50,838 nucleotides of DNA from Desulforegula conservatrix Mb1Pa. GTDB lineage: Bacteria > Desulfobacterota > Desulfobacteria > Desulfobacterales > Desulforegulaceae. Shown piece by piece: positions 2,173 through 10,279 of this stretch; positions within the stretch are counted from its first letter, which is position 1, and each line of letters starts with the position of its first letter. The notes beneath the pieces were generated by a model. It was not told the DNA's origin, ran no database searches, and worked only from the letters and a program-made list of their open reading frames with translations. The stretch is from positions 1 to 50,838 of the forward strand of contig NZ_AUEY01000024.1 in the NCBI RefSeq assembly GCF_000426225.1. The letters run 5' to 3'. A program made the position numbers and the translations under genes.

Positions 2173-2283
2173 ATGATCTGTCCCATAAGGATATTTATAT
2201 AATTATAGTGAGCTGGGTATGAAGATAATGTCAATTTTAGATTCTTTAAATAGCAGACTTTTTAATGTGCGCAAAAAATAAAA

Positions 2284-2308
2284 AACCCGGAGGCAAAGCC
2301 TCCGGGTT
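2284..2308 (-). terminator. Rho-independent terminator after the Hdr-like gene
   Basis: Perfect 11-bp stem AACCCGGAGGC / GCCTCCGGGTT with an AAA loop, followed on the minus strand by TTTTTTATTTTTT. It lies 30 bases past the stop codon of the minus-strand selenoprotein gene and probably ends that transcript. Confidence 0.9.
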
Positions 2309-2337
2309 TAAAATTCAATAATAATAATTGAATCTAT

Positions 2338-3669
2338 TTATTCTTCAGCATCTTCCGCTTTTGGTGGAAGATTTACTTCCTGGAGTTCTTCTCCGAGATA
2401 CTGTCTTTCGCTTTCTCCAAGAATACCAAGGGCAAGACCAAGAACTGTCCAGATATGAACAACATGGTAATGACTTCCATAATGTTCTGAAAGCTCATGA
2501 ATCTGGGCATGGCAGTTATGGCAGCCAGCAACTACATAGGTAGCCTTGGTAGCCTTTATCTGCTCGTCCTTGATTTTTCCGTAAAGAAGTCTTTCTTCTT
2601 TAAGACCGGACTGGAGATATCCGCCGCCGCCGCCGCAGCAGAAGTTATTGCTCTTGTTTGGATAAGTATCCACAAAATTCTCTTCGCCCACGCATGACTT
2701 AATGACGTAACGGATGTCATCAGCTGCTGCGTCGCCAAAGGTCTTACGGATAATATTGCATGGGTCCTGAATGGTGAATTTAATCTGGAGATCCTTGTTC
2801 CACTCGGAACTAGGCTTGAGTCTGCCTTCGCGGATCCACTGTGCGTAGTACTGATAGATGGTGCCGACTTCGAAGTTGTGCGGAATGTTGTACTTTTTCA
2901 GTCCTGCCAGGACTGAGAATGTTATATGCCCTCACTCGGTATTGAGAAAGACCTTGCACCCGAGTTCATTCGCCTCCTCGGCAGCAGTACGGGTAACATA
3001 ATCCCATCCTTCGTCATCAGCAAGGAACATACAGTAGTTTTCACCAGCCCAGCCTTTACGGCCATAAGTCCAGTCAACACCTGCAAGATTAAGAATTTTC
3101 CACAGAGGAAGAAGTTCTTCAGGCTCTGTCATTGGCTCGCGAGAGTTCTGATTAAGAAAAAATTCAGCGCCGAATTTTCCGATAGGCGCCTGAAGATCCC
3201 TTTCTTCCCATTCAGGATACTCAGCTTTATGTTCTTCGAGAATATCACCAACAACGAATTCAAAGTCTTCCTGGGAACAACCCATGGCGCTGCATGTGTC
3301 CATTTTCATGGCCATGTCGCATGATCCAAGAATACCTTTTGGTCTTTCCTCACGAGGAATCATCTGTCTTGCGTTGAATACCAGCTGGGGAATGTTGATT
3401 TTCATCGGGCATGCATACACGCAACGCGTACACATACTGCACATCCACATCCAGTTGGATTTCATTATTTCTTCGTCCAGTCCCAACGCGGCCATACGCA
3501 GGAACTTCCTGGGGTCCATACCAGCAAAACCGCTGGCCGGGCACCCGGAAGAGCAAAGACCGCAGGTCAGACAGGAATTGAGATTCCCGCCTTCAGGAAG
3601 AATGGCCTTTACCTTGTCGATAAAGGCGCTCTTCTTCTTCCCGCCGATTTTGATTGCTTCTTGAGCCAT
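2338..3669 (-). CDS. Selenocysteine-containing HdrD/DsrK-type iron-sulfur oxidoreductase (CCG domain)
   Basis: Reading through the TGA at 2934-2932 as selenocysteine gives one protein of 443 residues. The ATG at 3669 has GGAGGAG eight bases upstream. The N-terminal half has two [4Fe-4S] motifs, CLTCGLCSSGCP (Cys33, 36, 39, 43) and CSMCTRCVYACP (Cys77, 80, 83, 87). The C-terminal part has a CCG-type cluster motif: DPCNIIR, then FCCGGGGG, then GCHNCH. The read-through residue is in TE-U-GH, where related HdrD/DsrK/GlpC-type proteins carry cysteine (ECGH). The reading frame on both sides of the TGA is in phase, so no frameshift is needed. Such proteins pass electrons to disulfides or DsrC-like partners, or belong to Hdr/Tmc-like complexes. 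No partner subunit is adjacent and the gene seems monocistronic, so the redox partner is unknown. Confidence 0.85.
2895..2934 (-). promoter_or_regulatory. UGA selenocysteine codon with bacterial SECIS-like hairpin
   Basis: On the minus strand the TGA (2934-2932) is followed after 12 bases by a stem-loop at 2919-2895: TTCTCAGTCCT, loop GGC, AGGACTGAAAA. The stem has 11 positions with a single C-A mismatch, and the loop starts with G. Position and size fit the bacterial SECIS, which lies inside the coding region just 3' of the UGA and is bound by SelB. Confidence 0.8.
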
Positions 3670-4209
3670 TTTACAAACTCCTCCGTCTTGATTTGCAAAG
3701 CATCCGGGGCTCTTCCCGTCTGCCCAAAACCATCTGGATACCGCCGCAAAAACGGCAGAATCCCACACCTATCAGGTAAATCACCGAACCCTTAAAATAA
3801 GGGAAAACTAATCTGCCACACTGAGATGCAGTTCTCGCTTAAACCATAAAAGATGTCAATAGGAAACCACGGAACAGAAAAAAATCTCTTCCAAAAGCAG
3901 CGAAAAACCTGAAATAACAGAACAAATCCATCTAAATTCAATCATATTCGCTCTTAAAAAATTATTATTAGAGATTTCTAACCTCGTAAAAGAAAACAAA
4001 CATCTTTAGCAAATCAAAAACTTTCAGAACCTCTATACATTCACAGAGCTCCATTGATTCTTAAAAAACAGCCCGAAAGATAAGGTTCTTTGATTCAATG
4101 AATTTGACTTAAGCCCGATATTTTTATAATGAAATCAAAAACAATGCCTAAAAAAATAACAACCCGAATTCCAAAGATTATATACTAAAGCTTATATAAG
4201 GATAAACCA
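3670..4209. other. 540-base divergent intergenic region, AT-rich
   Basis: Separates the minus-strand Hdr-like gene from plus-strand dapL. No convincing open reading frame, structured RNA or repeat copy was seen. It contains the SD of the Hdr-like gene (3678-3684) and the promoter assigned to dapL near its right end. Confidence 0.5.
4103..4130 (+). promoter_or_regulatory. Candidate sigma-70 promoter of dapL
   Basis: TTTGAC (4103-4108) and a perfect TATAAT (4125-4130) with a 16-base spacer, about 80 bases before the dapL start. Position and -10 match are good; the -35 is imperfect. No riboswitch was seen in the leader. Confidence 0.5.
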
Positions 4210-6338: not shown

Positions 6339-9300
6339 TTACTGAAGAAGTCTCATTACATTCTGGGCAGATGCGTTTGCCTGGGACTGGGCATAGGTGC
6401 CAGCCTGCATCAGAACCTGCATCTTTGAGAACACCGAGCTTTCCTGAGCAAAATCCACGTCGCGGATGGTACTTTCCGTGGACTGAACGTTAATCTTGGT
6501 TACTGAAAGGTTTGCAACCGTGCTTGTAAGCTGATTCTGAACAGAACCCAAACCAGACCTAATTGAATCGAGACGTTTTATTGCAAAGTCGGCCGATCTG
6601 ATTACCATTTCAGCTCCCTGCTGGGTTGTCACGTCTGCGGTTGATATTGCAGTATCATAATTGATACCGGCAATAAGGGTTCCGTCGCCCCTAAGGTCGC
6701 TGGTCGCCTCTGTTTTTGTTCCGCCGCCTGCAAGTCCCATTCTCATAAGACTGAGTTCCCTGCCTGAAGCGCTGCTGCCGGCCCCGTCAACCTGGAAAAG
6801 TGTATCTGCCACAAGTCTTATCTCGCCCATATAGACAGAATCCTGAGCTACGCCTTTTCCCGGGCCAAAATCTGCTTCAAATTTTATATATTTGTTTCCT
6901 GCTGCGGTTGATTCCACATGAATATTTCTTCCATCAAGAGCCGATAGTACAAGCTTACCATCATTGTCTATGCTTGCTATTACCTTTGTCTGATCTTTGT
7001 ATTCGTTTATCGCGTTCATGAGAGCGTGATCAGCGTCTCCGGCAAGAACCTGCATACCCTTACCGCCTGTGTTGTCACGAACTATATCTATGCCGTTTAT
7101 TTTGAAGTCGCCCTGGGTAAGAACGCCTTCAACAACAGAGCCTGCGCCGGTAACATTGGCCTTGATAATATCGGCTTCGACACCTGTCTCATCCTTGACA
7201 AGATTGATTGCTGCAGCCCACGCAGCTGCACTCTTGTCTCCGAGGGCATGGGAAATGCCGTCATCCACAGGCTGGCCTATCTTGTAGCCATTTATGCTTA
7301 CATCACCGCTCTTATAGGAAAAGGTATCCACGCCAAAGAAGAGAAGGTCGTTTCCTGGGGTATTGTCTATTCCTGTTTCCTCTGATGCTCCGTAATGGAT
7401 TCCACCAAGACCAAGCATTTCAAGATAATTGTCTGAAGTTGGAGAAGAGTCAACAAGGGCTCCTGAAAGTTTTATCTGGCTGGATCTTGTTCCTTCGGCA
7501 ACACCGGGCAGCATTTTTGCCACCTTTGAAGGGTCATTCCCGCCAACTGTCAAAGGATCTCTTTCAGATATGATTCTAAGCCTGAAATCCGTATCTCCAG
7601 CTGACTTGTAAAGCTCGGCCCTTATTCCCATTTTCTGGAGATCACCATTGTTGTTGATTGCATTCACAAGGGTTCGATCTGCATCGCCTGCCTTTATTGA
7701 AAGACTGCCGCCCCGGGCTATGTCTATACCATTTATAATAAGCTCGCCTTCATTTATTGAACCTGCCTGGATACCCACTTCCCCGTTAACCATAGCCCTC
7801 GCGTTGGTCAATGAGAGAGCACCCCTTGCGACATAGGAAAGGCCTGCCATAGCCTGTCCATTAAGAGTAACACCAGTCGCTCCGGCGCCGGCCAAAGACA
7901 GATTGCGGCCATCATCCCCAACGATCCTAACCTCGCTGCCAATAAGCTCTGCCCTTATCCCCATTGCCTGGAGACTTGTGTTGGTATTTATATTGCTCAC
8001 AACCATGGCTGCCGTTGCGCCAGCCGCAACGCCAATTGATATGCCATTGAGGTTAAGACCCGCTGCCACAGGCCCAACTCCAATCACAAGCTCTGTGGTT
8101 GCCTTGGCTGCGACACCGGTGAGATTGATTTTCTCGTTTATGGCCGCAGCCTTTGCCCATGCAGTATTTGCACTGCCAAAAACCGTGAATTGGGAAACGG
8201 TTGCCCCAAGCGCAATACCGTTAACAAAAAGATCTCCGGCGACTATGGCAGCCTTACTGACCTGGGTTCCGGTAAGATATGATTTGCTTACAACAGCGAC
8301 ATCATTCCCGCCTGAATTTGAAGCTCCATTAAGTTCCCTTGAACCAAATCTTGCTCCGTCAAAGCCTATCTTCTGGATAAAATTGTCAGTAGGAACCGAG
8401 TCCGTAGCCGCGCCTTCCATAACAACGCCAGTTGTTTTGACACCTTCACGTGTTCCACTGATGAGTTGAGCTACCTTATGCGGATCTGCCCCACTTATTG
8501 TGACAGGCTCCTTCTCGGAAATAATTCTGAGCCTGAAATTTACATCGCCGGTTTCCTTGTAAAGTTCGGCCCTTATTCCAAGCGCCTGTAAATCCCTGTT
8601 GTTATTTATCGAAGTTACGAGGGTTCTGTCACCGTCTCCGGCAAGTATGGCAAGAGCTCCGCCTGCAGCCACATCCACACCATTTATCAGAAGATCTCCG
8701 GTACTTACTGAACCAGCTGCTATTCCGGCCTCGCTGTTAACCATTGCCCTTGCATTTGAAAGAGTTAGGGATCCACGCTGTGTGATCGTGGTTATTGCCA
8801 TTCCGTTCATGGAAGCGCCGCCTGCGGCACCAGCAAGAACAAGATTTCTGCCATCATTAGCAACTAACCTGACTTGGCCGTCAAAATGCTCGGCAGCAAT
8901 GCCCATAGCCTTGAAACTTGCATTATTATTAATAACACTCACAAGTGCATTGTCAGTTACCGCGCCTGTAAGGGCAACTCCATTAAGGGTTGCAGCTCCA
9001 ATGCCCGTGCCAACATTTATAATCAACTCTGTGGTGGCCTTTGCCTGGACACCGCTTTCATTGACTTTACCGTTAATAGCCGCTGCCTTGGCCCAAGCAG
9101 AATCTGTGCTACCATATGTTGCAAGCATGTTTACAGATGAGCCAATATTTATGCTGTTTGCCCTTATATCACCTTTAATGAGGGCCTCACTTGTTACAGT
9201 GCCGCCCTTGAGGAACGGGTCAGAAACAGCAGCCACAGAGTTACGATTTGTTTTGGCATATGCCATCGCACCTATTTTTGTAGCTCTTGCGTCATCGACA

Positions 9301-9779
9301 TTTACGCTTACGGTTTCATCCTTGTATGCTCCGACATGAAAGACCTTGTTGATGAAAGTACCGTCAAGAAGGGCAAGGCCGTTATAGGCAGTTGTTTCCC
9401 CAATCATCTGGAGTTCTTCCAGAAGCTTGTTAACGTCTGCCTGAATGGCCTTTCTGGACGAAAGATTCTGGGCATCAGAAGCAGCCTGGATGGCTTTTGA
9501 TCTGATTGTGGTTACGATGTTGAGGGATTCCTCAAGTGCTCCGTCAGCAATCTGAATAATATTAACCCCATCATTGGCATTCGATATTGCCTGGGCAATA
9601 CCAGTATGCTGGGCACGAAGGTTATCAGCAATCGCAAGACCTGAAGCGTCGTCTGCCGCTTTGTTGATTCTTAATCCACTGGAGAGACGCTCCAGTGACT
9701 GACTTAAACCTGCGTCGGTCTTTGTCAGGTTCTTGTGCGCTGTAAGCGCCTGTAAGTTTGTATTAATTCGAAGTCCCAT
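6339..9779 (-). CDS. fliC: Giant flagellin with tandem repeats
   Basis: A 1146-residue flagellin, two to four times the usual size. The N-terminal D0/D1 part (about 1-160; RINTNLQAL, ERLSSGLRIN, DDASGLAIADNLR) and the C-terminal D1/D0 part (about 1050-1146; ending QNVMRLLQ) are canonical. Between them are about 890 extra residues containing two tandem repeats of about 313 residues (181-493 and 494-806) and a partial third. Flagellin_IN-like motifs recur (GDLLINGVDV, GELIINGIDI, GDFKINGIDI, each followed by an INN/INE element). The ATG at 9779 has AAGGAGG nine bases upstream; the frame stays open to 9989 but without a better start. The neighbouring Maf and legionaminic acid genes suggest the surface-exposed middle is O-glycosylated. 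The distal promoter is a sigma-54 type. Confidence 0.95.
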   Translation of the reverse strand: MGLRINTNLQALTAHKNLTKTDAGLSQSLERLSSGLRINKAADDASGLAIADNLRAQHTGIAQAISNANDGVNIIQIADGALEESLNIVTTIRSKAIQAASDAQNLSSRKAIQADVNKLLEELQMIGETTAYNGLALLDGTFINKVFHVGAYKDETVSVNVDDARATKIGAMAYAKTNRNSVAAVSDPFLKGGTVTSEALIKGDIRANSINIGSSVNMLATYGSTDSAWAKAAAINGKVNESGVQAKATTELIINVGTGIGAATLNGVALTGAVTDNALVSVINNNASFKAMGIAAEHFDGQVRLVANDGRNLVLAGAAGGASMNGMAITTITQRGSLTLSNARAMVNSEAGIAAGSVSTGDLLINGVDVAAGGALAILAGDGDRTLVTSINNNRDLQALGIRAELYKETGDVNFRLRIISEKEPVTISGADPHKVAQLISGTREGVKTTGVVMEGAATDSVPTDNFIQKIGFDGARFGSRELNGASNSGGNDVAVVSKSYLTGTQVSKAAIVAGDLFVNGIALGATVSQFTVFGSANTAWAKAAAINEKINLTGVAAKATTELVIGVGPVAAGLNLNGISIGVAAGATAAMVVSNINTNTSLQAMGIRAELIGSEVRIVGDDGRNLSLAGAGATGVTLNGQAMAGLSYVARGALSLTNARAMVNGEVGIQAGSINEGELIINGIDIARGGSLSIKAGDADRTLVNAINNNGDLQKMGIRAELYKSAGDTDFRLRIISERDPLTVGGNDPSKVAKMLPGVAEGTRSSQIKLSGALVDSSPTSDNYLEMLGLGGIHYGASEETGIDNTPGNDLLFFGVDTFSYKSGDVSINGYKIGQPVDDGISHALGDKSAAAWAAAINLVKDETGVEADIIKANVTGAGSVVEGVLTQGDFKINGIDIVRDNTGGKGMQVLAGDADHALMNAINEYKDQTKVIASIDNDGKLVLSALDGRNIHVESTAAGNKYIKFEADFGPGKGVAQDSVYMGEIRLVADTLFQVDGAGSSASGRELSLMRMGLAGGGTKTEATSDLRGDGTLIAGINYDTAISTADVTTQQGAEMVIRSADFAIKRLDSIRSGLGSVQNQLTSTVANLSVTKINVQSTESTIRDVDFAQESSVFSKMQVLMQAGTYAQSQANASAQNVMRLLQ
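7362..9239 (-). repeat. Two tandem ~939-bp coding repeats inside the flagellin gene
   Basis: At protein level the two units start VAAVSDPFL and VAVVSKSYL and run in register through AWAKAAAIN, LVANDGRNL / IVGDDGRNL, LTLSNARAMVN / LSLTNARAMVN, RLRIISE and the GGNDVAV boundary. Sequence identity is high but not complete, implying an old duplication or diverged modules. A shorter third unit follows (about residues 811-990). Confidence 0.8.
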
Positions 9780-9797
9780 AGGTATATCCTCCTTAAC

Positions 9798-9834
9798 ATC
9801 CTTGTTTGCGGAATATTTATTTGCAAACAAGGAT
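9798..9834. promoter_or_regulatory. 12-bp perfect inverted repeat at the flagellin transcription start
   Basis: ATCCTTGTTTGC (9798-9809) and GCAAACAAGGAT (9823-9834) with a 13-base AT-rich spacer. It lies between the sigma-54 promoter (9835-9850) and the ribosome binding site (9785-9794). The start site expected about 12 bases after the -12 element falls near 9825, within one arm, so the sequence may be a DNA operator rather than an RNA hairpin. If transcription starts further upstream it would be a hairpin with a GGA next to the SD, as in CsrA-controlled flagellin leaders. Confidence 0.6.
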
Positions 9835-9850
9835 AGCAAGAAGGATGCCA
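9835..9850 (-). promoter_or_regulatory. Sigma-54 promoter of the flagellin gene
   Basis: Minus-strand TGGCATCCTTCTTGCT matches the -24/-12 consensus TGGCACRNNNNTTGCW at all but two positions and has the required GG-N10-GC spacing. It lies 56 bases before the flagellin ATG. Confidence 0.8.
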
Positions 9851-10279
9851 AAATATAACACATTGAAATAACTATATTTAGCCCATAAAACAATAAAAAT
9901 AGCGGAAAATTCATCCCATCTACAGATTGGAGCAACAACATAAAAAGCTGCAAAAGCAGGATGTTATATTGAGCAGCAGAAATGGCCACCAGGACATGAT
10001 ACGAATGAAATGCTGAATAAATGACGGAGATGGCGTCAAAATACCATCATAATTGATCAACGGCTTATTTCCACAGCAAGATTTTCCCATGGGAAGTAAT
10101 TGCCATTATTAAAACATTGGTGGAGGTTGAGCAAAAAAAGGAGAATAATGCAGGGTCTTATCAGGTATCAAGTATTGTCTGTGGTATGTGACCCACGATC
10201 TTAATCTGGGGGAGATTTCGCCGGACTAATTGAAATCCGGCGTTCTTTAGCCTTTTCACAAAACACTGCGGCTATTTGT
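9851..10279. other. Intergenic region between maf and flagellin
   Basis: No convincing gene. It probably holds activator sites for the sigma-54 promoter. At 10219-10242 an inverted repeat CGCCGGA / TCCGGCG (10-base loop) lies 38 bases past the maf stop, but it lacks a T-run on the minus strand, so it is only a weak terminator candidate. Confidence 0.45.

Follow-up and report, generated by a model that had tools for sequence, protein, structure and literature searches.

The window, the whole stretch of 50,838 nucleotides from Desulforegula conservatrix Mb1Pa that was analysed, contains on its minus strand a gene with an in-frame TGA codon (Table 1). When TGA is read as selenocysteine (Sec), 2338-3669 encodes 443 residues, with U246 (2934-2932), flanked by NTE and GHI, as the sole recoded codon. 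On either side of this TGA, at which the conventional reading splits the gene, the frame stays open; the part before it matches 4Fe-4S dicluster models in Pfam, and the part after it the CCG model. The gene looks monocistronic, given the GGAGGAG motif before its ATG and the terminator-like hairpin past its stop codon, both recognized by eye. Its neighbours are seemingly unrelated to it: the divergent one, which we take to be a dapL-like aminotransferase gene, and a downstream open reading frame of 266 aa. Elsewhere in the window, a flagellin-like frame (6339-9989, minus strand) is unusually long, at 1216 aa, and has inner segments that look repeated.

Table 1. Features of the Sec gene and its flanks, in window coordinates.
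Feature	Position	Strand	Details or basis
Whole gene	2338..3669	minus	443 codons + TAA, UGA at codon 246
In-frame UGA, read as Sec246 (TE-U-GH)	2932..2934	minus	TGA kept in 80/80 relatives (best 80 of 482)
Likely ribosome-binding site GGAGGAG, 8 nt ahead of ATG	3678..3684	minus	by eye
SECIS hairpin, 8-bp stem, loop GGC starting 23 nt after UGA	2898..2916	minus	fold, covariation and bacterial model limits
HdrC-like part, two 4Fe-4S sites (C33, C36, C39, C43, C77, C80, C83, C87)	3397..3582	minus	profile matches
First CCG-like domain, without full cysteine set, holds C213 and Sec246	2884..3168, approximate	minus	structural match to HdrB, conservation
Second CCG domain, full set C304, C344, C345, C383, C386	2500..2775	minus	Pfam CCG, HdrB alignment
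Terminator-like inverted repeat, then T run	2281..2309	minus	by eye

Conservation of the TGA codon and its SECIS hairpin

A scan of genome contigs identified 482 relatives, the best 80 of which were fetched (BLAST identity 67-77%). All 80 have TGA at exactly codon 246, which, together with the frame being open on both sides, bears out the proposal of a sequence-only reading that the two frames form one gene. In an alignment of 112 copies, which counts some genomes twice through double locus ids and is enriched in close relatives, TGA is present in 111; the remaining one is a paralogue in the D. conservatrix genome itself (L002), which is 62% identical and has TGC at the Sec codon. Although the standard reading splits the gene, the family is common: at E<=1e-100, 141 of 194 genomes of the order have a match, with TGA inside every one of the matches listed and TAA or TAG too in a few. 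At the level of the phylum, 107 of 395 genomes match at E<=1e-60, and the 26 further loci fetched from this search have TGA (22) or a Cys codon (4) at the Sec246 column. Cys homologues at this position are L002, L155, L163, L167, L169, L206 and L210. Residue 246 is Sec in 113 and Cys in 8 of 121 aligned rows, and a second alignment likewise has only Cys or Sec at this column (28/28 rows), as had been anticipated for homologues.

A tree places the window copy within a Sec clade of 24 rows (SH-aLRT 99) that is nested among other Sec copies, with three copies from Cys sets branching near the base. It is a quick tree with no bootstrap and a very long outgroup branch, so that its deep branching order is unsure. 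A recent Cys-to-Sec change from the paralogue L002 is not favoured by this topology.

The sequence-only reading had also described a hairpin of 11 positions, 12 bases downstream of the TGA. A hairpin is indeed present, but its stem comprises 8 bp closed by a 3-nt loop and begins 15 nt past the TGA. Folding energy alone gives modest support for a SECIS element (z between -1.45 and -2.93 for the various stretches folded), and the strong support comes from covariation. The alignment used for this purpose spans 45 nt from the TGA in 92 TGA copies, of which 73 are distinct. The 8-bp helix is paired in 95.0% of its cells, with four invariant pairs and four that have changes on both sides. Its covariation is 0.193, versus at most 0.024 in slid versions, and none of 500 shuffles was equally high; the count of further pair types was not above shuffles (430/500). 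The innermost pair alternates between U-A (40) and G-C (29). The codons involved are CTG-GCA versus CGG-GCC, which is a Leu-to-Arg change coupled to a silent one, a pattern that selection on the RNA would be expected to leave. The helix is weaker at its outermost pair, which does not form in 20 of 73, and at the pair of columns 22-34, which is lacking in 8 of 73.

The limits quoted for the published bacterial SECIS model are a stem of 4-16 bp, an apical loop of 3-9 nt with a G within its first two positions, a UGA-to-loop distance of 16-37 nt and an energy of at most -7.5 kcal/mol. The stem (8 bp), the loop (3 nt), the distance (23 nt) and the energy (-11.2 kcal/mol) all lie within them, and column 27 is G in 92/92 rows. 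No matching hairpin was found in the Cys paralogue by alignment, nor in other Cys copies by eye. Judged from its fit to the model limits and its compensatory changes, the SECIS hairpin is real. Of the Sec machinery that the sequence-only reading had proposed looking for, selA, selB and tRNA-Sec are encoded in the genome, all above cut-offs. By all sequence evidence, the product of the window gene is a selenoprotein.

Domain make-up and the Sec246 site

Matches to HdrC and HdrB agree with the Hdr/DsrK-like identity suggested earlier, and on these matches the window protein is an HdrC-HdrB (HdrD-like) fusion. The eight cysteines of the HdrC-like part are kept in 120 or 121 of 121 rows. The second CCG domain, which was aligned with HdrB, has all five cysteines in 121/121 rows. 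The description of a normal two-cluster CCG protein does not apply: the C-terminal CCG domain alone has five cluster cysteines, whereas its N-terminal counterpart, without the full set, retains residue 246 and C213. The latter is present in 120 of 121 rows, i.e., in 120/120 family rows besides the outgroup, and position 249 is not Cys among the letters listed for the 121 rows. T244, E245, C/U246 and H248 are invariant in 28/28 rows, including L003, a relative of the membrane-complex type from the same genome that is about 31-32% identical.

An AlphaFold2 model (pLDDT 88.1) has mycobacterial EtfD (9ojn) as its best structural match (Z 25.5), and from residue 168 onward it matches HdrB chains (Z 20.9-21.7). 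In EtfD, His583, which lies two residues past Cys581 of the first CCG domain, is described as a ligand of the noncubane cluster of the second domain (PMC13083937). U246-x-H248 fits Cys581/His583 by motif and spacing, and the selenol would consequently sit near the remaining noncubane cluster. The placement of residue 246 rests on model, motif and spacing, as profile comparison with the separate HdrB of the same genome was too weak for placing it and a CCG-part profile could be aligned with HdrB in the second CCG domain alone. Unlike the window protein, EtfD is described as a membrane protein without Sec that has a linear 3Fe-4S cluster in its first domain.

Candidate partner genes in D. conservatrix and its relatives

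The sequence-only reading had remarked on a lone gene with no visible partner subunits. This does not hold for the family, since many relatives have adjacent partners, nor for the genome, in which candidate partners lie on another contig. Neighbours on the same strand and within 2.5 kb were counted for 80 genome-contig copies (best 80 of 482), 19 in the clade of the window copy, where the gene stands alone (the lone clade), and 61 outside it; the counts are lower bounds owing to contig ends. Outside the lone clade, HdrA or MvhD is nearby in at least 25 of 61 copies, MetV or MetF in at least 17, and all four in at least 9. Within the lone clade, none of the 19 copies has such a neighbour on the same strand within 2.5 kb. 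One lone-clade copy (L023) has an HdrA-type frame 2.4 kb off; this was not used as support for pairing, because it lies on the opposite strand and has Cys and a GltD-like insert.

Two relevant gene sets were found in D. conservatrix. The first, on contig C89, is an all-Cys Flx-like set consisting of CCG, HdrA, MvhD, an Fe-S subunit and an AsrA-like subunit. The second, on contig C26, consists of HdrA with TGA (DCAMU), MvhD with TGA (SGUHPGD), an Fe-S subunit and an AsrA-like subunit, and has no CCG gene. Of the partner genes of an Flx-type complex, C26 has those for HdrA, an MvhD-like protein and two Fe-S subunits. As the contig ends inside the AsrA-like gene, the FNR-like subunit of this set is presumed from relatives, where its gene is seen. 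Both contigs end inside the AsrA-like gene (L135:3-530 on C89, L171:3-530 on C26), with 100% identity between the two ends across 176 aa, so that a near-identical repeat shared by the Sec and Cys operons has probably interrupted the assembly here. A lone HdrC-HdrB pair lies on contig C5 (L136:4491-5907), with no HdrA beside it within the 15 kb examined.

Gene sets were inspected in 12 further genomes, at part of their Sec MvhD loci. CCG-less Sec sets occur in G019, G051, G085, G025, G122, G184, G081, G016 and G012, each together with a lone-clade Sec CCG gene. With D. conservatrix (G000) included, a lone-clade Sec CCG gene is accompanied by a CCG-less Sec HdrA-MvhD-Fe-S set in all 10 of the examined genomes that have such a gene; the stretch visible upstream of HdrA in these sets measures 3.4 to 8.9 kb. 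These genomes were selected because their best copy seemed to stand alone. In G019 and G051 there is one family match each at E<=1e-100 and one free MvhD each with TGA. Compared with the C26 protein, Sec HdrA of the CCG-less sets has 69-75% identity and Cys HdrA 62-63%. The Cys sets of G085, G184 and G000 bear a Cys CCG gene adjoining HdrA (3/3). G045 has a variant set, seen with just 1.0 kb upstream, in which HdrA is fused to a GltD-like part, and the sets of G050 and G004 are cut at contig ends. An upstream motif that the Sec HdrA set might have in common with the lone gene was not used as evidence: the best match in G000 was 11 versus a shuffled maximum of 10, and six other genomes were not above shuffles.

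Other arrangements were seen as well. G081 has two loci where HdrA, MvhD and CCG stand side by side, all with TGA (L227:7134-12201 and L228:6919-12058), and these sets are without the Fe-S and AsrA-like subunits. In 7 of 11 Sec HdrA sets, miaA lies directly beside the set in divergent orientation (L171:5324-6259, L203, L204, L205, L207, L209, L220), which suggests that the place of the set is conserved across families.

Proposed function and relation to known systems

The simplest account proposed for these gene sets is that the lone gene supplies an HdrBC-like subunit to the C26 set. The protein would then be an HdrC-HdrB-like selenoprotein working with the C26-type Sec HdrA-MvhD flavin-bifurcating set as its disulfide end, to which we give a probability of roughly 0.6. 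After recoding of the UGA at codon 246 by the SECIS hairpin, it would handle the thiol/disulfide chemistry in a soluble complex that is flavin-bifurcating and resembles FlxABCD-HdrABC. The other subunits would come from the other contig, namely Sec HdrA, Sec MvhD and two Fe-S subunits, joined by the NAD(P)H-FAD subunit seen in relatives. Electrons may pass from NADH by way of HdrA and the HdrC-like clusters to the second CCG domain, where the noncubane cluster would receive them. Sec246 would occupy a ligand position of the first, degraded CCG site, and may form a transient selenenyl-sulfide with its disulfide substrate, for instance DsrC.

Disulfide reduction is a reasonable guess for the function. 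DsrC is a reasonable guess for the substrate because contig C17 has genes that we take to be qmoA, qmoB, qmoC and an aprA-like gene, which suggest a sulfate reducer. Contact of DsrC with FlxABCD-HdrABC in Desulfovibrio vulgaris is indicated by the title of a cited paper. The Cys-only set in the same genome suggests isoenzymes suited to ample and to scarce selenium.

Alternatively, the selenoprotein may serve another complex, for instance a MetVF set or an ETF-type donor, while a separate HdrB/HdrC pair serves Sec HdrA-MvhD. The MetV or MetF neighbours on the same strand within 2.5 kb, counted above for at least 17/61 copies outside the lone clade, are consistent with this, and 7/7 genomes searched also encode HdrB separately, in a frame about 300-350 aa long. 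In G012, moreover, one locus (L230) has the order HdrC-HdrB-HdrA-MvhD(Sec)-MetV-MetF with HdrB and HdrC separate, and C26-type HdrA was also met with in G050 and G004, with no lone-clade CCG gene observed in either. These findings weaken the lone gene as unique supplier, and the separate HdrB/HdrC pair remains a rival partner for the Sec HdrA-MvhD set. Nevertheless, all three homologous Cys sets employ a CCG fusion of the family of the window gene, and the HdrB/HdrC pair of D. conservatrix has no HdrA alongside in the 15 kb viewed, so that service in another complex is on balance unlikely, if still a serious contender.

Far less probable is a membrane-complex subunit, like DsrK, TmcB or HmcF, that draws its electrons from the quinone pool. 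TmcB, HmcF and DsrK are the top NCBIfam matches of the protein, but with 149.6, 138.4 and 99.8 bits these fall so far below the curated cut-offs of 735, 750 and 400, respectively, that orthology to any of them was rejected; the genome also has another relative of that type, L003. That the gene is truncated or a pseudogene, with translation stopping at the TGA that divides its frame in the standard reading, has a negligible probability given the TGA at the same codon in 80/80 relatives (best 80 of 482), the SECIS covariation and the encoded Sec machinery, and on the first two of these a pseudogene or sequencing error was rejected.

Within the preferred pairing with the C26 set, a more specific picture is tentative and, taken as a whole, rather doubtful. 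A selenol and a single noncubane [4Fe-4S] cluster would make up the disulfide-reducing site, with Sec246, perhaps together with C213, standing in for the first CCG cluster, which has degraded. The window gene would then encode, apart from the rest, the third Sec subunit of a Sec NADH-bifurcating Hdr complex that exists beside a complete Cys isoenzyme.

FlxABCD-HdrABC, in its known make-up, is a close model for the proposed partner set, in which HdrA, an MvhD-like protein and two Fe-S subunits are joined, in relatives, by an FNR-like NAD(P)H-FAD subunit. The proposed complex, predicted here from gene content, would differ by its fused CCG protein being encoded at another locus and by Sec in three subunits. 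The window protein also resembles HdrB and HdrC of HdrABC (5odc, 7bkb, 8rvu) in its HdrC part with two 4Fe-4S sites, its HdrB fold and its second CCG domain with five cysteines. Unlike these, it is fused in one chain, and its first CCG domain is without a full cysteine set and has Sec.

The novelty implied by the sequence-only reading has to be given up, as the family itself is already described and the window gene is a further member. A 2026 review lists an 'Fe-S oxidoreductase-like' (GlpC) selenoprotein (PTHR43551, motif UGH; example record WP_174406253.1). It is found in Deltaproteobacteria, and an operon that also has HdrA and FrhD has been reported for it. U246-G-H248 within a CCG protein corresponds to this selenoprotein, compared by description, whereas the window gene stands alone. 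An Fe-S oxidoreductase selenoprotein has also been reported from a marine deltaproteobacterium. In Desulfobacterium autotrophicum HRM2, HdrC and HdrB domains are described in one soluble protein of the HdrD group, with Sec in hdrD4; compared by description, this HdrD4 is likewise an HdrC-HdrB fusion with Sec. What is added here is the SECIS covariation, the degradation of the first CCG site and the recurrence of a split Sec set across genomes. No report of a split Sec set was seen in the literature searched (open-licence papers).

If the pairing is true, an energy-conserving enzyme exists in sulfate reducers as two parallel forms, one with Sec and one with Cys, and the form in use might depend on selenium supply. 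Parallel forms of this kind have been reported for the methanogen M. maripaludis (PMC11097638). A natural Sec/Cys pair within one genome would also offer a test of the effect of selenium beside a noncubane cluster. In one of the Cys copies of the family (L163, from G345), the downstream stretch resembles a decayed SECIS by eye, perhaps reflecting a Sec-to-Cys change.
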